The notes under the pieces were generated by a model that saw nothing but the letters and a program-made list of their open reading frames with translations, was not told the DNA's origin and made no database searches. This document shows, piece after piece, positions 2 through 9,948 of a stretch of 35,007 nt of DNA. This DNA is from Acidimicrobiaceae bacterium (lineage in GTDB: Bacteria > Actinomycetota > Acidimicrobiia > Acidimicrobiales > UBA8592): assembly GCA_002720485.1 (NCBI GenBank), contig PBIQ01000006.1, positions 1 through 35,007 of the forward strand, written 5' to 3'. Position numbers and translations under genes: made by a program. Positions within the stretch are counted from its first letter, which is position 1. Every line of letters starts with the position of its first letter.

Positions 2-1192
2 AAGTTCTTTGGAGAGAACCCCATTTACGATGAAAAGAATCAACCCATAGCGCCAGCTAAATGGAGATTCCCGGGCAGGGGTCGAGTCGAATCGCAGTTA
101 AGACGAGCACAAGGTCTTCTGGGGCAAGCAGAACAAACTCTCAACAAACTGCCAATACGTGGAAATCAGGCAATGGTTGTTGCCGACATTGAAGACCGTA
201 AAAATGAGATCGATAAAGCCTTAGAGTATGTCACGCTATATGGAAAGTACGTGGAATGCGAAGCCTTATACTCGGTTGATAATCTTCTTTCTCTTTGGGA
301 TTCACTACCTGAAGAAGATAAAGAAATATTCTCTTTCGACCCAAGATCTATCGACTGGTACGAGTACGTATACAACATCCACTTACCTACCGTAATTACC
401 AAAGGAAGAGTAAAAACTTCCCCATCCAAATCCTCTACGAAATCCCGATCTTCCCGGCTGAGAAATCAGGTATTGGACTCCCGGCGCCAACTAGCAGTGT
501 TTGATCTTGAAAATACTCTGATCGCCTCAAATGTCGTTTCATCATGGAGTTACCTCGCCACAAAGAGGCTGCCAAAAGCTGAGAGAGTCAAACTGGTAAC
601 AAAAACATTGGCACAAGCGCCAAGTATGCTCGCTTTAGATAGAAAGGATCGTAGTGATTTCTTACGAAGCTTCTACCGTCGATACGCTGAAGCACCGATA
701 ACTCAAATCGACGACGATTCTTTCGAAATGTTTAGCGAAATGATTTTGACCAAATCGTTCCCCGCAGCCATACGCAGAGTCCGCGAACACAGAGCCCTTG
801 GGCACAGAACATTATTGATAACCGGTGCATTAGATTTCGTCGTCAAACCATTACAACCACTTTTCGATGACATCATTTCTGCGACTCTTTCTCATGATGG
901 AAACACATACACTGGACAAATGAAGCAAGTCCCCCCTATCGGTGAAACTCGGGCAGCGGTTCTTCGCCGGTTCGCCGAAGAGAACAATTACGATCTATCT
1001 GAAGCTGTCGCGTACGCTGATTCGGCGAGTGACTTGCCGATGCTCGAAGCGGTAGGCTTTCCAGTTGCTGTCAATCCAGAGCCCAAGCTGGCTGCATTAG
1101 CCAACCGGCGTGGATGGCTAATTGAAAACTTTAGGCCTGTAGCAGGGTCACCTTCTAAACTGCTTCCTCTCGGTTCAAGAGTAAGGAGATAA
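2..1192 (+). CDS. Fatty acyl-CoA reductase / HAD-IB phosphatase-like fusion, 3' part (partial)
   Basis: The reading frame is open from the first bases of the window, so this is the C-terminal part of a larger protein whose start lies outside. The first ~135 visible residues resemble the C-terminal (sterile/FAR_C) domain of actinobacterial SDR-type fatty acyl-CoA reductases, including FDPRSIDWYEYVYNIHLP near nt 335-390. The rest is a HAD-IB domain: motif I FDLENTL (nt ~500-520), motif II LLITGA (nt ~813-830) and motif IV YADSASDLPML (nt ~1014-1046). The second catalytic Asp of motif I (DxD) is Glu here (GAA, nt 509-511), and no clear motif III Lys is seen near PPIGETRAAVL. In the family, the reductase makes fatty aldehyde or alcohol from acyl-CoA; the role of the HAD half is unknown. 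An AAGGAG at 1183-1188 just before the TAA probably serves the next gene, 4 bp downstream. The NAD-binding domain is not visible, so the reductase call rests on the C-terminal part. Confidence 0.7.
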   Translation, partial: KFFGENPIYDEKNQPIAPAKWRFPGRGRVESQLRRAQGLLGQAEQTLNKLPIRGNQAMVVADIEDRKNEIDKALEYVTLYGKYVECEALYSVDNLLSLWDSLPEEDKEIFSFDPRSIDWYEYVYNIHLPTVITKGRVKTSPSKSSTKSRSSRLRNQVLDSRRQLAVFDLENTLIASNVVSSWSYLATKRLPKAERVKLVTKTLAQAPSMLALDRKDRSDFLRSFYRRYAEAPITQIDDDSFEMFSEMILTKSFPAAIRRVREHRALGHRTLLITGALDFVVKPLQPLFDDIISATLSHDGNTYTGQMKQVPPIGETRAAVLRRFAEENNYDLSEAVAYADSASDLPMLEAVGFPVAVNPEPKLAALANRRGWLIENFRPVAGSPSKLLPLGSRVRR

Positions 1193-1196
1193 GCGA

Positions 1197-2813
1197 GTGA
1201 GTGATGACCGAAGAAGAAATCCACGACCCGGTCTGGTTTTAGACGTCGACAGGTCAACGCCGCCGGTGCTTTTTCACCACGGAGAAGGATTCCGACTGGA
1301 AAAACTTCCTGCTGGGCGCTCGAGAATTCTTTACCCACCTGAACCCCTCCCTGGCTTACGAAATCCCGATAGGCACATCCAAGAAGCGCTTGAAAATCCT
1401 ATGGGTGATTCCCCACCTCTTTCAGCACTACTAAAACCAGGGATGAAATTAACAATAGCTTTCGACGATATCTCATTACCTCTTCCACCAATGAGAGCAC
1501 CTGATATTAGGCAACGGATCATAGAAGCAGTCCTTGATCAAGCCGCCCAGCAAGGTGTAGATGACGTTCATATCATTGCCGCTTTAGCACTTCACAGGCG
1601 AATGACTGAAAGTGAACTCCGACACGCAGTTGGAGACCGTGTCTACGATGCTTTTGCCCCTTCCGGACATCTTTACAACCACGACGCCGAAGACCCTGAT
1701 GGAATGACTGTCATCGGAACAACTCACCATGGTGAAGAGGTTCAAATAAACCGAAGAGCCGCCGAATCTGACCTAATCGTCTACGTCAACATCAATCTTG
1801 TTGCAATGGATGGGGGTTGGAAAAGCACTGCCACTGGACTCTCGGGATACACTGCCTTACGCCACCACCACAACCCCCAGACAATGGTCAAATCACGTAG
1901 CTTTATGGATCAAGAAAACTCTGAACTCCACAAATCCAATTGGCGTCAGGGGAAAGTACTTAGAGATTCAGACATAAATATTTTTCAAATCGAAACAACA
2001 GTGAACAACAACACGTTTGGACTTGATGGCCCGCTTGCCATGTTGCAAAAACGTGAGTGGGAATGGAATTTGCGAGATCGAACGGCGTTCATTGGGTATC
2101 AAGCCGGTTTACGCCGAATGAGCGCTTCGGCTAAACGGAAGATATTTAACTCTTGGCAATCCCCTTACGAGCTAACGTCAATCCAGGCAGGCGAAGTTGA
2201 AGCGGTACATAAACTGACAACTGAAAATGTGTATAAGCAGCAACTTGTCAACGTGGATGGGCAGACAGATGTGCTCACAATGGGACTACCTTACATCTGT
2301 CCGTACAATGTTAATTCCGTAATGAACCCCATACTTGTGGCTTGTCTAGGCCTTGGCTACTTTTTCAACATGTACCGCGGAAAGCCTCTCGTTCGCGAAG
2401 GCGGAGTGGTAATAATGACGCATCCGACGCCATGGGAATTTCACCCTGTCCACCACCCAAGCTACATTGATTTTTTTGAAAGAGTTCTGAGCCAAACCAA
2501 AGATCCTATAGTAATGAGCCAACGCTTCGAAAAAGCTTTCGCTGAAGATGAATGGTACCGACATCTCTATAGAACGTCGTACGCGTATCATGGAGTTCAC
2601 CCTTTCTACATGTGGTATTGGTGCGCTCATGCACTTGATCACCTCGGTCAGGTAATCATTGTCGGTGGAAACACTGACGCTGTCCGACGTCTGGGTTTCC
2701 GTTCGGCTACTACGCTTAATGACGCCTTTGAAATAGCCAGTGACGTAGTCGGCCCTCAACCTTCTGTCACCCACTATCACAGTCCACCGATCTTAATGGC
2801 CAATGTCCAATAA
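1197..2813 (+). CDS. LarA-like (DUF2088) lactate racemase-domain protein
   Basis: 538 residues, GTG start with AAGGAG 8 bp upstream. The N-terminal half follows the LarA N-domain: IAFDDISLPLP (res ~88-97), LALHRRMTESEL (130-141), NHDAEDPDGM (161-170), a NRRAAESDL segment (185-193) and GGWKSTATG (206-214), whose Lys209 aligns with the lysine that carries the nickel-pincer cofactor in LarA. The second half matches the LarA C-domain only loosely (VIIVGGNTDAVRRLGF) and is rich in His, Tyr and Trp. LarA enzymes are usually ~420-430 residues, so this is ~110 longer. The Arg of the usual DDxTRP motif is Leu94, and no larB, larC or larE maturation gene is in the window. It sits 4 bp after the reductase/HAD gene and 9 bp before an acyltransferase, so its substrate may be lipid-linked rather than lactate; that is inference. 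The fold is fairly sure, the reaction unknown. Confidence 0.7.
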   Translation: MSDDRRRNPRPGLVLDVDRSTPPVLFHHGEGFRLEKLPAGRSRILYPPEPLPGLRNPDRHIQEALENPMGDSPPLSALLKPGMKLTIAFDDISLPLPPMRAPDIRQRIIEAVLDQAAQQGVDDVHIIAALALHRRMTESELRHAVGDRVYDAFAPSGHLYNHDAEDPDGMTVIGTTHHGEEVQINRRAAESDLIVYVNINLVAMDGGWKSTATGLSGYTALRHHHNPQTMVKSRSFMDQENSELHKSNWRQGKVLRDSDINIFQIETTVNNNTFGLDGPLAMLQKREWEWNLRDRTAFIGYQAGLRRMSASAKRKIFNSWQSPYELTSIQAGEVEAVHKLTTENVYKQQLVNVDGQTDVLTMGLPYICPYNVNSVMNPILVACLGLGYFFNMYRGKPLVREGGVVIMTHPTPWEFHPVHHPSYIDFFERVLSQTKDPIVMSQRFEKAFAEDEWYRHLYRTSYAYHGVHPFYMWYWCAHALDHLGQVIIVGGNTDAVRRLGFRSATTLNDAFEIASDVVGPQPSVTHYHSPPILMANVQ

Positions 2814-2822
2814 GGAAGAACG

Positions 2823-3815
2823 ATGCCTCAGAGACTGTCAACTAGAGAGATACGGAGGAGAACGAAGCAAATACGTCGCGCCATAGACGGAACACGGCGA
2901 CGGTTAATTAATCTGAAATTTATCCGAACAGCCCAATTCCCTTATCGCCCTCCATCGGTGCCAAAAGGAATCGATCCTCTACCTAAAAAATCAAAAACTG
3001 GTAGCTCATTCAGAACCGACTGGGCGAGACGAACACCTGCCCAGACTTTCCGGATGCTATTTAGCGAATTCCCGATGAGGCCAATTATTCAGTTCCTAGC
3101 AAAGCCCTCCATGATTGGAATTGATTCTCTTGCTGATATCCCTAACTATCAGCCGGTAATATTTGTGGCCAATCACCATAGCCATATCGACACTCCCCTC
3201 CTTCTAACTAGCCTTCCCATCCGATGGAGAAAGAAACTTGTCGTGGGGGCTGCTGCTGACTACTTTTTTTCCACAAGAATTACGGGTACGCTTTCTGCTT
3301 TGTTCATTGGAGCGATCCCAATCGAACGTAGAAAGATTACTCGAAAATCATCTGACGACATCGCCGATTTGATTGACAAGGGTTGGAGTTTCATGGTTTT
3401 CCCCGAGGGAGGAAGGTCACCTGATGGCTGGGGCCAGCCTTTCCGAGGAGGCGCAGCGTACTTGTCACTTCGATGCAACGCCCCTGTTGTCCCAATCCAT
3501 ATAACTGGAACTGGTGCCATTCTTCGCAAAGGTCGGAATCTTCCAAAACCTTCGAAAACAACAATCAATTTTGGGCGGCCTATTTGGCCCGGCGTAGAAG
3601 AAAGTTCTCGCTCCCTTGCCAAACGCATTGAAGTTTCTGTCGCTCAGCTCGCCGATGAAACTTCTAGTAACTGGTGGGAAGCAAAGAAGCGACTGTACGA
3701 GGAAAAGACGCCAACTCTTCATGGGCCCGAGGCAAGTAGCTGGAGAAGGGCGTGGGAACTGAGCGGACGAAAGAGAAAACAACAAAACCCCAGTCGGAAT
3801 TGGCCAAAAATCTAA
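2823..3815 (+). CDS. PlsC-type 1-acyl-sn-glycerol-3-phosphate acyltransferase family protein
   Basis: 330 residues, ATG start with AAGGAAG upstream. The acyltransferase signature is complete: NHHSHIDTP (res ~117-125) is the catalytic HX4D block, followed by IPIERRK, FPEGGRSPDGWG (res ~197-208) and VVPIHITGTG. Family members move an acyl group from acyl-CoA or acyl-ACP to lysophosphatidate or a related acceptor at the inner membrane. The first ~60 residues are very basic and have no membrane segment, an extension beyond a minimal PlsC. The gene closes the operon with the reductase/HAD and LarA-like genes, so it may esterify an unusual backbone, for example a fatty alcohol or alkylglycerol product; a plain PlsC role is the alternative. 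A 78-bp gap follows before aconitase. Confidence 0.85.
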   Translation: MPQRLSTREIRRRTKQIRRAIDGTRRRLINLKFIRTAQFPYRPPSVPKGIDPLPKKSKTGSSFRTDWARRTPAQTFRMLFSEFPMRPIIQFLAKPSMIGIDSLADIPNYQPVIFVANHHSHIDTPLLLTSLPIRWRKKLVVGAAADYFFSTRITGTLSALFIGAIPIERRKITRKSSDDIADLIDKGWSFMVFPEGGRSPDGWGQPFRGGAAYLSLRCNAPVVPIHITGTGAILRKGRNLPKPSKTTINFGRPIWPGVEESSRSLAKRIEVSVAQLADETSSNWWEAKKRLYEEKTPTLHGPEASSWRRAWELSGRKRKQQNPSRNWPKI

Positions 3816-3893: not shown

Positions 3894-6179
3894 ATGGCAG
3901 TAAATGCATCAACTCCTATTGAACTTATTGAAGGCGTATACGCAAGCCTCGAAAAACAAATAGCTTTTGGCCGAGACCACTTCAATCGACCGCTTACTCT
4001 CGCTGAAAAAATCCTCATAAACCACCTTGATAGAAACGACCAAGAACTGACTAGAGGCAAGTCATACGTTGATTTACGGCCAGATAGAGTCGCCATGCAA
4101 GACGCAACCGCACAAATGGCGTGGCTCCAGTTTATGACTGCTGGACTCGACGAAGTTGCCGTACCAACTACCACCCATGCCGATCATTTGATACAAGCAA
4201 AAATTGATGGCAAACAAGATCTCCTGAATGCGAATCACACGAATGCTGAAGTTTACGACTTTCTTGAAACTGTCTGCGCGAAATACGGAGCTGGCTTCTG
4301 GAAACCCGGAAGCGGAATCATCCATCAAGTCGTTTTAGAACAGTATGCATTCCCAGGTGGAATGATTATTGGAACCGACAGCCACACTCCTAATGGTGGT
4401 GGACTTGGAATGATAGCTATTGGCGTAGGCGGAGCGGACGCTGTAGACGTAATGACCGGCTTTCCTTGGAATGTTAGGTGGCCAAAATTGATCGGCGTGC
4501 ACCTTACCGGCTCGTTAAATGGGTGGAGCGCCCCTAAAGACATTATTTTGAAAGTGGCTGAAATCTTAACGGTAAAAGGCGGAACCGGAGCAATAGTTGA
4601 ATATTTCGGCGAAGGAGCAAACAGCTTATCAGCCACAGGAAAAGCAACTATTTGCAACATGGGAGCTGAAATCGGAGCGACAACTTCCGTTTTCCCCTAT
4701 GACGAAGCTATTGAGCGATACCTGAAATCCACTTCTCGAGAAGCTGTTGCAGACCTTGCAAACCAGCATGCAAGCAACCTAAAAGCCGACCAAGAAGTCC
4801 TCGATAACCCTGAAAAATTCTTCGATCAAGTAATCGAAATTGACCTATCACAATTACGTCCTCACATTAACGGACCGCATACACCTGATCTCGCCCGAGA
4901 ATTAAAAGATCTCGGTCAAGAAGCTACTGAAAATGGATGGCCACTTGAAATCAGCGCGGCCCTTATCGGCAGCTGCACCAACTCTTCATATGAAGACATA
5001 ACACGTGCTGCGTCAATCGCCAGAGAGGCAGCAGCTTCTGGACTCAAAACCAAAACACGTCTCCTCATTACCCCCGGATCAGAAAAGGTCCGAGCTACCA
5101 TTACCCGTGACGGACTTCTTGCTGACTTTGAAGCTCTTGGAGCAGTTGTATTGGCAAATGCTTGCGGCCCATGTATCGGCCAATGGGATAGATCGCTGGA
5201 AGATCATGAACCCGGAACACCCAATGTTATCGTCACCTCCTACAACAGGAATTTCCCCAAACGTAACGATGGCGATCCAGCCACCCTTGCTTTTGTCACC
5301 TCACCAGAAACCGTTATGGCCGTAGCCCTTTCAGGAAGGGTCGATTTTGACCCAGTCACCGACGAGTTGGTAAATGAAGACGGAGAAAGCGTCAAGCTAT
5401 CCACACCTGAAGGACTGGAACTCCCCCCCAGTGGTTTCGACCCCGGAGAAGACACCTTCCTTCCTCCCCCATCCGATGGAAGCGAAGTAGAAGTTCTCGT
5501 TTCTCCTGACTCCAACCGCCTCCAACTTTTAACTCCATTCAGCCCATGGGACGGAAACGACTATGAGGATCTCCCTATACTTGTCAAAGCAAAAGGGAAA
5601 TTCACAACTGACCATATTTCCATGGCAGGTCCATGGCTCAAATACCGTGGCCATTTAGAGAACATCTCCGGAAACCTATATTTGGGAGCTGTCAACGCAT
5701 TCTCTGGATATGAAGTAGGACACGGCAAGAACCTATTAACTGGCGAAGTACAGACTTTCCCTGATATCGCGAAGTCATATCATGAATCGGGACAACAGTG
5801 GGTTGTGATAGGTGATGAAAACATGGGAGAAGGATCAAGCCGAGAACACGCCGCCATGGAACCAAGGTTCCGCCTAGGAGTTGTTGCTATAGCAAGAAGC
5901 TTTGCCCGAATACATGAAACCAACTTGAAGAAACAAGGGATGCTTCCTCTCACCTTTATTAACCCTGACGACTACGACCGCATAGAGGAGAATGACCGAA
6001 TTAGTGTATTGGGCCTAGCAGATTTAACACCAGGGAACCCCGTCACTGTTGAAGTCAGAAAATCAAATGGGGACACTTTTACTTTTGAAACTACCCATAC
6101 TTTCAGTGAAGAACAAATAAAGTGGTTTGTTTCCGGGTCTGCACTAAACGTTATACGTGAACAAACTGCTGAAGATTAG
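3894..6179 (+). CDS. acn: Aconitate hydratase (mitochondrial-type aconitase)
   Basis: 761 residues, the full length of mitochondrial-type aconitases (about 750-780). It interconverts citrate and isocitrate in the TCA cycle in the cytoplasm. The three [4Fe-4S] cysteines are seen: Cys361 in LIGSCTNSS, and Cys424 and Cys427 in [22 protein letters not shown] (res 160-170) and the swivel-domain [14 protein letters not shown] (active-site Ser and Arg) are intact. The ATG has AGGAAAG 6 bp upstream. It is followed on the same strand by a LysR gene, a carboxyltransferase and citrate synthase, so two consecutive TCA enzymes lie within 6 kb. Unlike the AcnA type (~890-930 residues) common in high-GC actinobacteria, this is the shorter form. 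Confidence 0.96.
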
Positions 6180-6217
6180 TTAGGGCGAAATCTCTCTTCA
6201 GAAGGCGGGTTAGGAAA

Positions 6218-6236
6218 CTATCTAATATATAGATAG
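6218..6236. promoter_or_regulatory. Palindromic LysR-type operator candidate (T-N11-A)
   Basis: CTATCT-AATATAT-AGATAG is a perfect 6-bp inverted repeat with a 7-bp AT-only spacer. Inside it, TCTAATATATAGA (6221-6233) fits the T-N11-A rule for LysR-type binding sites. It lies 36 bp before the likely start of the LysR gene, a usual place for autoregulation. The AT-rich core could also serve as a -10 element. Confidence 0.5.
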
Positions 6237-6271
6237 GATACAAAAAATCGTTATTCTGAGAGATGGCTAGT

Positions 6272-7177
6272 ATGGACATTCGACAATTAAACGCCCTAGT
6301 TGCCGTAGTTGACCACGGTACGTTCAGTGCCGCAGCTAGTGCCTTACATACTGTGCAGTCAAATGTTTCAACTCATATCCTTCGACTTGAACGTGAACTC
6401 GATGTTGCCCTTATCGATCGCACTTCTGGGACGTTGACCGAAGAAGGAGTCCTTGTAGTTGAACGAGCTAGAAGAATACAAACCGAGCTTGAAGCAATAG
6501 CCCTAGACGTCACAGCACTCCACTCAGAAGTCGGCGGAATCGTCAAACTAGGGCTAATTGGCACAACGGGGCGATGGCTATCACCAAAGCTTCTAGATTC
6601 CATTAACGAGACGCACTCAAAAATAATTGTACAAATCGTTGATGCAACAACTAGCAGTTTGATCCCACTCGTAGTTCAAGGCAATGTCGATGGGGCCGTA
6701 GTGAACCTTCCCATATCCCACCCAGATATTCTCATAGAGCCACTTTTTGAAGAAGAGCCGATGCTCGTCGCACCCAAAAACCATCCCCTTGCACAATTTG
6801 ACAAGATCTTGCCGGAGCATCTTGCCGCCTATCCCCTACTCCTCAACCCTAAGGGAGTCCCATTTCGAGACAGCTTGGACCAAGATCTTGCAAAAGAAGA
6901 TATTACATTAACCCCTAAGGCAGAAGTTGACGGGATGAGACTCCTTGCTTCGCTAGCAGCAGACGGATTCGGAGCGGCTGTACTTCCTGCAACTGCTGCT
7001 CAGGGTAGCGAAGAATGGAAACGGATCCCCCTACCTGGCTTCACAAGGCGTGTCGTCGGCTTCGCCGTCAATAGACGCGTACCCTTGTCTGCAACTGCTC
7101 GAGCTGTTCGTGATGCACTCAAAAAAACAATCAGCGACCATGGTTCGCATCAAGACGGCATTTTCATGGCGGCTTAA
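6272..7177 (+). CDS. LysR-family transcriptional regulator
   Basis: About 301 residues from the ATG at 6272. An in-frame ATG at 6263 exists, but the purine-rich GAGAG at 6258-6262 touches it, whereas it lies 9 bp before 6272, and MDIRQLNALV is the typical LysR beginning. The N-terminal winged helix-turn-helix (res ~1-60) contains GTFSAAASALHTVQSNVSTHI and LERELDVALIDR. Residues ~90-290 form the periplasmic-binding-like effector domain (VKLGLIGTTGRWLSP; DGFGAAVLPA near the end). The effector is unknown. A T-N11-A palindrome upstream suggests autoregulation, and the flanking aconitase and carboxyltransferase genes, both on the same strand, are possible targets. Confidence 0.92.
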   Translation: MDIRQLNALVAVVDHGTFSAAASALHTVQSNVSTHILRLERELDVALIDRTSGTLTEEGVLVVERARRIQTELEAIALDVTALHSEVGGIVKLGLIGTTGRWLSPKLLDSINETHSKIIVQIVDATTSSLIPLVVQGNVDGAVVNLPISHPDILIEPLFEEEPMLVAPKNHPLAQFDKILPEHLAAYPLLLNPKGVPFRDSLDQDLAKEDITLTPKAEVDGMRLLASLAADGFGAAVLPATAAQGSEEWKRIPLPGFTRRVVGFAVNRRVPLSATARAVRDALKKTISDHGSHQDGIFMAA

Positions 7178-7225
7178 ATTCCCTATTCTTCCAATTTCTA
7201 AACCTTCAGCTACTAAGATCATATT

Positions 7226-8584
7226 GTGAGCACAGAAACTACTACTTCAGTCGAACTGCTGGCACAGATATCTTCGAATTCAAAAGTCGCTCATCATAAG
7301 CGCGACTCTGGTGATTACATAAGTGTAAGCATCGGATCTCCATCTGAACCTATTGCACTAAGTGGTAATGATGGCATCAAACTAGCTTCTGGCGCTGAAA
7401 CCGCTTTTCACCACCGAATTCCATTAGTCATCCATCTAAATTCAACCGGCGCCCCTCCCGATTCTGGTATAGAAGCACTTTATGGATGGGGGTCAGCCGC
7501 AAAACAACTAACAAGATGTTCCGGTGTCATACCGACGATAATCTGCGTTCATCAAGCAGCAGTTGCTGGATCTGCACTACTTTTAGGACTCGTCGATTTC
7601 GTAATAATGGTCAAAGATTCTTTTACTTACGTAAGTGGACCAAGAATGGTTCAAGAGTTCACAGGCGTGCCTGTAGACCAAGAAGCCCTCGGAGGTTCTG
7701 GTAAACACGCTCAAACATCAGGAGTTGCATCTTTCGTTGCCTCCGATAGCGACTCCGCAATTGAACTAATCGATGAACTGCTTTCGCTCATTCCACAAAA
7801 CTCTGCCTCTCTGCCAATACATGTTTCATCGAGCGACCCAACGGACCGTGATTTAAACGGGATAGAAGGTATCATTCCTCAATCAGCAACGGGAAGCTAC
7901 GACGTCCGAGACATCCTTAAAGAAGTTTTCGATGACGGCTTACTCACAGAAATCCGGAAAGAGTGGGCCACTAATCTTGTCACATCCTTCGCAACATTAG
8001 GAGGTCACCCTGTCGGCGTCGTAGCAAATCAACCCCAGTCACTTGCTGGGACCTTAAATATAGCCGCATCACAAAAAGGAGCAAGATTTGTAAGCTTCTG
8101 CGATGCGTTTAACATACCGATAATAACTTTCGTCGATACCCCCGGTTTTCAGCCCGGCAAAGACCTCGAATGGCGCGGAATGATCCGGCATGGAGCTCAA
8201 TTGGCTTTCGCATACGCACAAGCAACTGTTCCAAGAATATGCGTCACGCTGAGGAAAAGTTACGGTGGCGCCTACATTGTCATGGATAGCAAATACATGG
8301 GCAACGACCTCTCTATCTCCTGGCCGTCAGCAGAAATTGCTGTAATGGGAGCAAAAGGAGCTGTAGAGATCCTCCACCGAAAGGCAAACGAGGAGGAGCG
8401 GTCAATTCTTGAGGAGGAATATGAGAACCGCCTTCTTAATCCCTATATGGCAGCTGAGCGGGGTTCAGTAGATATCGTCATTACGCCTGCTGAAACCCGA
8501 AGAAAGGTTTTTGCTGCACTCCAACCACTCCTAACAAAGAGAGAGAAGCTCCAAAAACGGCTTCATGCCAATACTCCTCTCTAA
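7226..8584 (+). CDS. Acyl-CoA carboxylase carboxyltransferase (AccD/PccB-like)
   Basis: 452 residues, GTG start with no strong ribosome site. Both crotonase-like halves of a biotin-dependent acyl-CoA carboxyltransferase are present. The N half has LNSTGAPPDSGIEALYGWG, SGVIPTIICVHQAAVAGSALL and a GGSGKHAQTSGVA oxyanion segment (res ~152-164). The C half has FVDTPGFQPGKDLEWRGMIRHGA, TLRKSYGGAYIVMDS and WPSAEIAVMGAKGAVEIL. The family moves carboxylate from carboxybiotin to acetyl-, propionyl- or longer acyl-CoA. At 452 residues it is shorter than the usual ~510-530, because the ARERIDLLLDPGSF-type N-terminal block is absent, and the first ~55 residues are divergent. No biotin carboxylase/carrier subunit is in the window. 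Substrate cannot be told. It may be a specialised paralogue rather than the housekeeping subunit. Confidence 0.88.
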   Translation: MSTETTTSVELLAQISSNSKVAHHKRDSGDYISVSIGSPSEPIALSGNDGIKLASGAETAFHHRIPLVIHLNSTGAPPDSGIEALYGWGSAAKQLTRCSGVIPTIICVHQAAVAGSALLLGLVDFVIMVKDSFTYVSGPRMVQEFTGVPVDQEALGGSGKHAQTSGVASFVASDSDSAIELIDELLSLIPQNSASLPIHVSSSDPTDRDLNGIEGIIPQSATGSYDVRDILKEVFDDGLLTEIRKEWATNLVTSFATLGGHPVGVVANQPQSLAGTLNIAASQKGARFVSFCDAFNIPIITFVDTPGFQPGKDLEWRGMIRHGAQLAFAYAQATVPRICVTLRKSYGGAYIVMDSKYMGNDLSISWPSAEIAVMGAKGAVEILHRKANEEERSILEEEYENRLLNPYMAAERGSVDIVITPAETRRKVFAALQPLLTKREKLQKRLHANTPL

Positions 8585-8679
8585 ATTCGGATATAAGAGA
8601 TGGAATAAGTCAACTTTGCTAGTAAAAGCGGCCTGATTTTCCGATACAATGACGTACTGATCAACGCTTGGAGTAACAC

Positions 8680-9948
8680 TTGTCAGAGTCAATTACCGTC
8701 ACCGATAATCGATCCGGAGAGTCTGTTGAGATCCCGATTGTTCATGGTGGAGTTGAGTCCAGTGCATGGACTAAATTACTTCCAGATCTTTGGTTTAAGG
8801 ACGAAGGCTTTGCCGCTACTGCTGTGACAAATAGTTCAATCACCTTTATTGACGGAGCAGCTGGGCAACTTGAATACCGAGGGTACCCAATAGAGGATTT
8901 AGCAAGCAACTCCTCATTTCTGGAAGTTGCATTCCTGCTACTCAATGGAGAGCTTCCAAACCAAGATGAATTGACTTCATGGGAAGAAACGATCGCAGAA
9001 AACTCTGATCTAGATCCCAACCATCACAATGCATTGCTTCAGGCCTTCCAAAAAGACTCCCACCCTATGGGCATGTTGACCTCGGCTCTTGCGGCATTAT
9101 CTTCTATGTACCCTGATGCCCGTGAAATTGAAGATCCTGCAATTCGGGCCAAACACACCATCAATCTAATCGCAAAAATTCCATCGATTGCCGCAGCAGC
9201 CGAAAACTTTCGGAACGGCAAGGAAATTCAGTCTTCCAGGCATGATCTTAGCTACACAGAGAACTTTCTTTCTGCAATATACCGCGACGGCGATAGCGAA
9301 TACCTACCTGACCCCATATTCACAAAAGCCTTGGAGCAGCTCTTTATTCTTCATGCTGACCACGAGCAGAATTGCTCAACGACTGCCGTTCGTGTAGTTG
9401 GCTCTGCCCACGCTGACCCATATTCGGCGATTGCTGCTGGAAGTGCAGCATTATCTGGCCCAAGACATGGAGGAGCGAACGAAGCTGTCATTAATATGCT
9501 CGACGAAATTGGCACATTGGAAAATGTCGATGCTTTCGTTGATTCAGTCAAGAACGGTGATGATTTACTTTGGGGGTTTGGCCACCGCGTCTATAAAAAC
9601 TATGACCCAAGAGCTCAAATCATTAAGGACACCGCCCATCAGATCTTTGAAGTAACTGGAAAGAATCCAAAATTAGATATCGCTTTAAAACTTGAAGAAA
9701 CTGCGCTTGCTGACGATTATTTCATCAGCCGAAAGCTGTATCCAAATGTTGATTTCTATAGTGGACTTATCTATCAGGCTATGGGCTTTCCTGTGAATAT
9801 GTTTACAGTTCTCTTTGCTATAGCTAGAACGTCTGGCTGGCTTTCACACTGGAACGAAATGCTCGAGAGAAATACACGAATTGCACGACCAAGACAGCTG
9901 TACGTAGGAAATTCAACACGGGAATTCACAAGCATCCAAGATCGATAG
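8680..9948 (+). CDS. gltA: Citrate synthase
   Basis: 422 residues, a normal length for type II citrate synthase. It condenses oxaloacetate and acetyl-CoA. The TTG start is supported by GGAG at 8670-8673 with a 6-bp spacer and by a standard N-terminus. Catalytic residues are seen: His263 in GPRHGGANEAV, His302 in GFGHRVYKNYDPRA and the Asp in NVDFYSG (res ~357). HADHEQNCSTTAVR and the C-terminal RPRQLYVG are also typical. A TACAAT at 8645-8650 could be a -10 element but lacks a good -35. The stop is 1 bp from the stop of rsmE on the other strand. Confidence 0.97.
   Translation: MSESITVTDNRSGESVEIPIVHGGVESSAWTKLLPDLWFKDEGFAATAVTNSSITFIDGAAGQLEYRGYPIEDLASNSSFLEVAFLLLNGELPNQDELTSWEETIAENSDLDPNHHNALLQAFQKDSHPMGMLTSALAALSSMYPDAREIEDPAIRAKHTINLIAKIPSIAAAAENFRNGKEIQSSRHDLSYTENFLSAIYRDGDSEYLPDPIFTKALEQLFILHADHEQNCSTTAVRVVGSAHADPYSAIAAGSAALSGPRHGGANEAVINMLDEIGTLENVDAFVDSVKNGDDLLWGFGHRVYKNYDPRAQIIKDTAHQIFEVTGKNPKLDIALKLEETALADDYFISRKLYPNVDFYSGLIYQAMGFPVNMFTVLFAIARTSGWLSHWNEMLERNTRIARPRQLYVGNSTREFTSIQDR

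Follow-up and report, generated by a model that had tools for sequence, protein, structure and literature searches.

A LarA-like protein of the LarAH14/15/16 family in a conserved actinobacterial operon with a fatty-acyl reductase/HAD fusion and an acyltransferase

Background

NPN (nickel-pincer) enzymes of known reaction isomerise 2-hydroxy acids, whereas relatives without the second catalytic histidine are represented by structures with no known substrate (PMC12611868). The lactate racemase LarA (5huq, 6c1w) stands for the former and the single-histidine proteins LarA_Sp (9q3k) and LarA_Bw (9q3j), whose genes adjoin sugar-phosphate genes, for the latter (PMC12611868). Another family, NF052592 (LarAH_14_15_16), is named "NPN-dependent hydroxyacid isomerase", yet the accessible parts of its literature gave no demonstrated activity for any member. 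A Frankia protein of group 14 was inactive on lactate and in six other activities (PMC7583248). The LarAH15 of a later paper is an oomycete gluconate epimerase (PMC11770544); the group numbers were apparently reused and the two should not be equated. The accessible portion of the published account of LarAH14/15/16 does not describe the lipid neighbourhood reported here, and Table S1 of PMC7583248, which gives the COG neighbours per LarA group, may already show the association for group 14. Literature searches on lipid operons with LarA, DUF2088 in Actinobacteria, reductase-linked ether lipids and the lipids of Acidimicrobiia returned nothing relevant.

Organization of the locus

The window, that is, the whole stretch of 35,007 nucleotides of contig PBIQ01000006.1 from an Acidimicrobiaceae bacterium (GCA_002720485.1), opens with three plus-strand ORFs (Table 1) separated by 4 bp (genes 1 and 2) and 9 bp (genes 2 and 3). 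Gene 2 starts with GTG and gene 3 with ATG, and gene 1 has no start codon because the start of the contig truncates its 5' end. The short gaps, the Shine-Dalgarno-like sites and the conserved order and strand agree with the first-pass annotation, which had read the three genes as a single operon.

Table 1. Features of the operon in window positions; residue equivalences come from profile alignments and an AlphaFold2 model (pLDDT 79, weak active-site loops)
Feature	Position	Strand	Remarks
C-terminal part of fatty-acyl-CoA reductase/HAD fusion (gene 1)	2..1192	+	Sterile and HAD matches; profile match 377-769 of 772
FAR_C ("Sterile", PF03015) segment	209..382	+	41.1 bits, cut-off 35.4
HAD (subfamily IB) phosphatase domain	494..1048	+	Motif I D-L-E-N-T, 503-517
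Shine-Dalgarno-like AAGGAG before gene 2	1183..1188	+	Within the 3' end of gene 1
LarA-like (Lar_N/DUF2088) protein, LarAH14/15/16 family, 538 aa (gene 2)	1197..2813	+	Lar_N; NF052592
Asp91 codon, LarA Asp72 equivalent (NPN ribose)	1467..1469	+	132/132 sequences
Leu94 codon, LarA Arg75 position (Lys76 in S. plurextorum LarA)	1476..1478	+	Leu in 118, Ile in 13 and Cys in 1 of 132; Arg and Lys in none
His133 codon, equivalent of LarA catalytic His108	1593..1595	+	132/132
Asn200 codon, position of LarA catalytic His174	1794..1796	+	N in 130/132; alignments to 6c1w and 9q3j
Lys209 codon, equivalent of NPN-attachment lysine (LarA Lys184)	1821..1823	+	131/132, the remaining one undetermined
His225 codon, equivalent of Ni-ligand histidine	1869..1871	+	132/132
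Shine-Dalgarno-like AAGGAA before gene 3	2812..2817	+	Just 5' of the gene 3 start
PlsC-type acyltransferase, 330 aa (gene 3)	2823..3815	+	PF01553; H(X4)D (NHHSHID, 3171-3191); EGGRS (3399-3419)

What is left of gene 1 covers the Sterile/FAR_C and HAD parts, the NAD_binding_4 half lying beyond the contig edge. Full-length relatives of about 770 residues contain NAD_binding_4, Sterile and HAD together with the Rossmann and YxxxK motifs of fatty-acyl reductases; NAD_binding_4 was seen only in them. With the domain set complete in these relatives, the acyl-CoA reductase/HAD fusion proposed earlier was confirmed. The nearest described enzymes are the FAR/DPW-type reductases (rice fatty-acyl reductase DPW, 7eoz), with which the reductase shares the fold, NAD_binding_4 and Sterile domains, the TGxTGFxG and YxxxK motifs and 28% identity. 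Unlike them, it carries a C-terminal HAD-IB fusion, whose motif I departs from the DxDx(T/V) of HAD-IB: gene 1 and 70 of 77 relatives have DxE, and DxD is found in six of the 77. The other HAD motifs are kept; since the acid/base aspartate is a glutamate in most members, phosphatase activity is uncertain.

Gene 3 belongs to the PF01553 superfamily and is, as had been claimed, of the PlsC type, with the H(X4)D and EGxRS motifs of the PlsC 1-acylglycerol-3-phosphate acyltransferase. It is not a standard PlsC, because it scores 51.6 bits against TIGR00530 (PlsC), whose curated cut-off is 102.95. It further differs in that its family is exchanged for PlsY in one family of genomes (f25): PlsY lies directly upstream of the reductase, in place of the PlsC-type gene, in 8/8 genomes tested.

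Family and active site of the LarA-like protein

Gene 2 encodes a clear member of NF052592 (882.1 bits against a curated cut-off of 740, residues 14-538 matching model positions 2-520). Its AlphaFold2 model (pLDDT 79.4, active-site loops weak) has the two-domain LarA fold, with Z scores of 25-32 over 381-448 residues in comparisons with eleven LarA-family entries. Besides the fold, it shares with the lactate racemase the residues predicted to bind NPN, to attach it and to ligate nickel (Asp91, Lys209 and His225), as well as the equivalent of His108. However, Asn200 stands at the position of the second catalytic histidine, His174; Arg75, which in LarA contacts the substrate carboxylate and the NPN phosphate, is replaced by Leu, Ile or Cys in all 132 sequences; and the C-terminal domain is barely alignable by sequence. 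Canonical 2-hydroxyacid racemisation is disfavoured because the equivalents of His174 and Arg75 are gone, and lactate-type racemisation by this protein appears unlikely. The "racemase" label given at first is doubtful.

The family profile scores 71 bits against canonical LarA and 212 against the single-histidine type. The best matches are LarA_Sp (212 bits, Z 32.5) and LarA_Bw (176 bits, Z 29.1), which also have an asparagine at the His174 position (Asn200 aligns with Asn185/Asn187) and whose Tyr307 and His401 have invariant equivalents (Tyr370 and His468) in the LarA-like family described here. Yet identity to them is 22-23%, His306 and Lys76 are replaced by Pro369 and Leu94, and the genes found here adjoin lipid genes instead of sugar-phosphate genes. 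By sequence, the gene 2 protein is a cousin and not a member of the single-histidine subfamily.

Conservation of the unit and of the NPN cofactor genes

Of 296 Actinomycetota genomes, 66 have the LarA-like gene, 70 have the reductase-HAD gene and 65 have both (Fisher p = 3e-58); the operon is thereby present in about a fifth of the genomes sampled. At loci with enough flanking sequence, order and strand were kept for the reductase (79 of 82) and for the acyltransferase (91 of 96), and LarA-like proteins outside the window's class are 50-60% identical to the window's. The three-gene association is non-random and represents an old conserved unit. Rare co-occurrence in relatives, which the first-pass annotation had named as fatal to its reading, is decisively ruled out, and its tie between a nickel-pincer family member and lipid genes stands. 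More divergent LarA homologues (L130-L132) occur without the reductase and in other contexts.

The three-gene composition described at first was correct and incomplete. In most lineages a Zn alcohol dehydrogenase forms a fourth gene, placed between the reductase and the LarA-like gene and present in 17/17 contexts outside the nearest lineage; in this genome it is displaced, a copy (54-55% identical) being located on a different contig.

Within the window's class, larC was present in 14 of 17 operon genomes and in none of 13 without the operon (p = 5e-6), and larB and larE had the same distribution as larC in both sets of genomes. The complete NPN pathway is confined, in this class, to genomes with the operon. 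Three operon genomes of 95-98% completeness (G250, G276 and G104) gave no larB, larC or larE match above the cut-off, and the three genes were not found in the genome of the window, which is 69% complete; all three are present in its close relatives G298 and G303. As the operon genomes of the window's order have one LarA-family match each, the LarA-like protein is evidently the enzyme that the cofactor serves. These patterns of gene content leave a lipid-pathway role for the predicted NPN enzyme well supported. In some lineages larB and larC lie downstream of the unit. Adjacency to larB, larC and larE together with action on lactate had been named as the other refuting outcome; the adjacency was partly observed and supports the use of NPN, and nothing points to lactate as the substrate.

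The operon ties the single-histidine-type LarA group to concrete partners, namely a reductase, a dehydrogenase and an acyltransferase. With these partners, and with the cofactor pathway retained in one class only next to the operon, the function of single-histidine LarA enzymes becomes directly testable.

Proposed pathway and alternatives

We propose, at a probability of roughly 0.55, that the operon encodes the central part of an actinobacterial lipid pathway not described so far, in which the LarA-like enzyme would carry out hydride transfer on a non-carboxylate hydroxyl. From acyl-CoA or acyl-ACP the reductase would make a fatty alcohol or aldehyde. Glycerol-3-phosphate, or a polyol phosphate resembling it, would be acylated by the acyltransferase, a phosphate might be removed by the HAD domain, and the alcohol dehydrogenase and the NPN-bearing LarA-like enzyme would rearrange hydroxyl and carbonyl groups of the lipid or polyol part. 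By analogy with LarA, the step of the LarA-like enzyme is most likely a hydride transfer, and a substrate other than a carboxylate is proposed because the second catalytic histidine and the carboxylate-binding arginine are missing. Hydride could be taken from one face of the hydroxylated substrate and returned to a neighbouring position or, alternatively, to the other face with the aid of another residue, so that the net reaction would be an isomerisation or inversion of a lipid or polyol alcohol and not the racemisation of a 2-hydroxyacid. A bolder form of this proposal, which we consider unlikely, is that a nickel-pincer enzyme was recruited to membrane-lipid assembly, where hydride transfer would invert or move a hydroxyl or carbonyl of a backbone that is glycerol-like or a long-chain polyol; if true, this would mean an NPN reaction on a substrate that has no carboxylate and, across much of the Actinomycetota, a class of lipid that has so far escaped notice. 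The operon hints that abundant marine and freshwater bacteria make a lipid not yet described, and it offers a specific starting point for working out the role of an uncharacterised class of nickel enzymes.

All characterised LarA relatives use 2-hydroxy acids, some of up to six carbons (PMC11770544), and a fatty-acyl reductase adjoins the LarA-like gene. The enzyme might then act as a racemase or epimerase on long-chain 2-hydroxy fatty acids or on 2-hydroxyacyl groups, which the reductase would convert to 2-hydroxyaldehydes or 1,2-diols for lipids. The change of His174 to Asn (130/132) and of Arg75 to Leu, Ile or Cys (132/132) makes this improbable, as does the Frankia member, inactive in all seven activities tested, hydroxyisocaproate and phenyllactate included (PMC7583248). 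Still more doubtful is a plain lactate racemase or similar enzyme lying by chance beside lipid genes: the Pfam Lar_N match and the nearby larB and larC of some lineages would fit it, but near-perfect co-inheritance with the reductase, the missing catalytic residues and the far lower score to canonical LarA than to the single-histidine type render it extremely improbable.

The eukaryotic ether-lipid enzyme set includes a fatty-acyl reductase and a glycerolipid acyltransferase. The same pairing here, and the PlsY substitution, which points to a glycerol-phosphate acceptor, would suit the synthesis of alkyl- or alkenyl-ether glycerolipids, with the NPN enzyme and the dehydrogenase adjusting a glycerol or ketone backbone; given that no alkyl-DHAP synthase-like gene occurs in the conserved unit among the gene clusters identified, we regard this as quite unlikely. 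Storage wax esters or fatty alcohols, the LarA-like protein having a side function, are very unlikely products. Wax-ester synthesis begins with a fatty-acyl reductase, and WS/DGAT occurs in 11/17 operon genomes of the class, but also in 9/13 class genomes without the operon; it is absent from five operon genomes of the class that are 98-99% complete, from 5/5 genomes of family f25 and from G049, G022 and G227, and a PlsC or PlsY acyltransferase is not a wax synthase. Since many operon genomes lack a wax-ester-synthase family protein, the wax ester suggested at first is not a general product.

Neighbourhood of the unit

Two apparent rearrangements of the unit were discarded. A fusion of the reductase-HAD and LarA-like genes at locus L010 proved spurious, produced by N bases at the stop codon, and a split reductase gene in family f25 was suggested by apparent in-frame stops, yet the frame of locus L114 is intact across both domains. 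Conserved flanking genes encode Ddl and a Mur ligase upstream, and aconitase, a LysR protein, a carboxyltransferase and citrate synthase downstream; they look like stable housekeeping neighbours and not parts of the unit. A TetR gene, weakly FasR-like and mostly divergent and upstream, was found at 47 of 100 loci.

Organization and conservation of the unit

The reductase-HAD, LarA-like and PlsC-type acyltransferase genes of the window (genes 1 to 3) are separated by only 4 bp (genes 1 and 2) and 9 bp (genes 2 and 3), and AAGGAG and AAGGAA precede the starts of genes 2 and 3, respectively. Since the window opens where contig C6 begins, in a genome of 1.49 Mb and 69% completeness, gene 1 is truncated. 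Pfam domains were Sterile and HAD in gene 1, Lar_N in gene 2 and Acyltransferase in gene 3; relatives of gene 1 that are full length, at about 770 aa, carry in addition an NAD_binding_4 reductase domain and keep the TGxTGFxG and YxxxK motifs intact. In structure the reductase came closest to DPW, a fatty-acyl reductase from rice. Of 77 fusion proteins, 70 have D-x-E-x-T as HAD motif I and six have DxD; DxE is an uncommon substitution of the acid/base residue.

Features located in the window and in compared genomes
Feature	Location	Strand	Remark
Gene 1, reductase-HAD fusion	2-1192	+	C-terminal half of longer protein
HAD motif I	503-517		
Gene 2, LarA-like	1197-2813	+	complete
Gene 3, PlsC-type	2823-3815	+	complete
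Downstream block	3894-9948		
Alcohol dehydrogenase copy	G000:C28:7987-9159 (L137)		own genome
Second PlsC-like gene	6325-7029 (beside the dehydrogenase copy)		
PlsY, family f25	L145:4076-4672		
PlsY, family f25	G011:C1:1362840-1363364		
Divergent LarA homologue	L130:8694-10196		outside operon
Divergent LarA homologue	L131:6004-7455		outside operon
Divergent LarA homologue	L132:8723-10117		outside operon

The unit is real and widespread. Eighty Acidimicrobiia-type loci and 20 contexts from other genomes were compared: of the 82 with enough flank to judge the reductase, 79 have it upstream of the LarA-like gene in the same orientation, and 91 of 96 have the acyltransferase downstream of the LarA-like gene. 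Across 296 Actinomycetota genomes, 66 had the LarA-like family above its cut-off, 70 matched the reductase-HAD profile at E <= 1e-100 and 65 had both; of the five with the reductase alone, three (G093, G139 and G255) contain LarA-like fragments of lower score. No biochemical characterization of the unit was found in the literature covered; its gene neighborhood may already be listed in a supplementary table of PMC7583248.

A fourth gene encodes a Zn-dependent alcohol dehydrogenase akin to polyol dehydrogenases. It was present near the LarA-like gene in all 17 contexts beyond the nearest lineage that keep the reductase, in almost every case as the gene separating the LarA-like gene from the reductase, and many Acidimicrobiia loci have it too (37 loci in all, cluster 6). 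It is absent from the operon in the window's lineage, and a copy with 54-55% identity lies elsewhere in the same genome, having moved to a site beside an SDR gene and another PlsC-like gene. A TetR regulator weakly similar to FasR, mostly divergent and upstream, accompanies 47 of the 100 loci.

The LarA-like protein and its probable cofactor

The conserved unit is tied to the synthesis of NPN, the nickel-pincer cofactor of LarA. In the window's class 14 of the 17 operon-bearing genomes have larC, versus none of the 13 that lack the operon, and larB and larE occurred in the same 14 and again in none of the 13. In some other lineages (loci L116 to L118) the acyltransferase is followed, after roughly 0.5-1 kb, by larB and larC. 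As each operon-bearing genome of the order has one LarA-family match, the LarA-like protein is the evident client of the cofactor. None of larB, larC and larE was found in the window's own incomplete genome, and all three are present in its close relatives G298 and G303. None exceeded the cut-off in the operon-bearing genomes G250, G276 (L133) and G104, which are 95-98% complete; these exceptions raise the question of cofactor salvage or of an NPN-free role.

The LarA-like protein falls within an already curated family. Residue equivalences were taken from a profile alignment to solved structures, and conservation from 132 sequences. Asp91, His133, Lys209 (Asp72, His108 and Lys184 of LarA) and the nickel ligand His225 are invariant, the LarA His174 position is Asn200 in 130 sequences, and that of Arg75 is Leu94 in 118, Ile in 13 and Cys in one. 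Because this carboxylate-binding arginine is lost, the substrate probably has no free carboxylate adjoining the hydroxyl. Among relatives of solved structure, the closest are two single-histidine LarAs, from Streptococcus plurextorum (212 bits, Z 32.5) and Blautia wexlerae (176 bits, Z 29.1), whose substrate is not known (PMC12611868). Their Tyr307 and His401 correspond to Tyr370 and His468, invariant in the window's family, whereas their His306 and Lys76 are replaced by Pro369 and Leu94 in the window protein. A Frankia group 14 member showed none of seven activities tested (PMC7583248). More divergent LarA homologues (about 420-540 bits) were also seen in three loci; the neighbors searched in L130 and L132 matched no NCBIfam family.

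Acyltransferase exchange and proposed pathway

In family f25, PlsY (PF02660) replaces the PlsC-type acyltransferase: it sits immediately upstream of the reductase-HAD gene in all eight genomes tested (two tabulated, six further genomes likewise), and a PlsC query of two loci (L114 and L115) detected no PlsC-type gene following the LarA-like gene. The occurrence of two unrelated glycerolipid acyltransferases in one unit argues that the pathway probably includes acylation of glycerol-3-phosphate or a look-alike. In four of the eight genomes the operon-linked PlsY was the sole PlsY found, and there it presumably also has a housekeeping duty. The operon-bearing genomes G268, G078, G051 and G272 gave no PlsY match, so their first glycerol-3-phosphate acylation may rely on another acyltransferase, possibly the operon's own.

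Judging each chemical step by family membership, the reductase would reduce a fatty acyl group, the acyltransferase would acylate a glycerol-phosphate-like acceptor, and the dehydrogenase and the NPN enzyme would oxidize, reduce or isomerize a hydroxyl. Dephosphorylation by the HAD domain is less certain because of the prevailing DxE motif. WS/DGAT is common where the operon is missing; five near-complete operon genomes of the class lack it, and so does every one of the five f25 genomes tested. This distribution rules out wax esters as the general product.

Downstream of gene 3, a block read from sequence as aconitase, LysR regulator, carboxyltransferase and citrate synthase is kept in 19-48 related loci.
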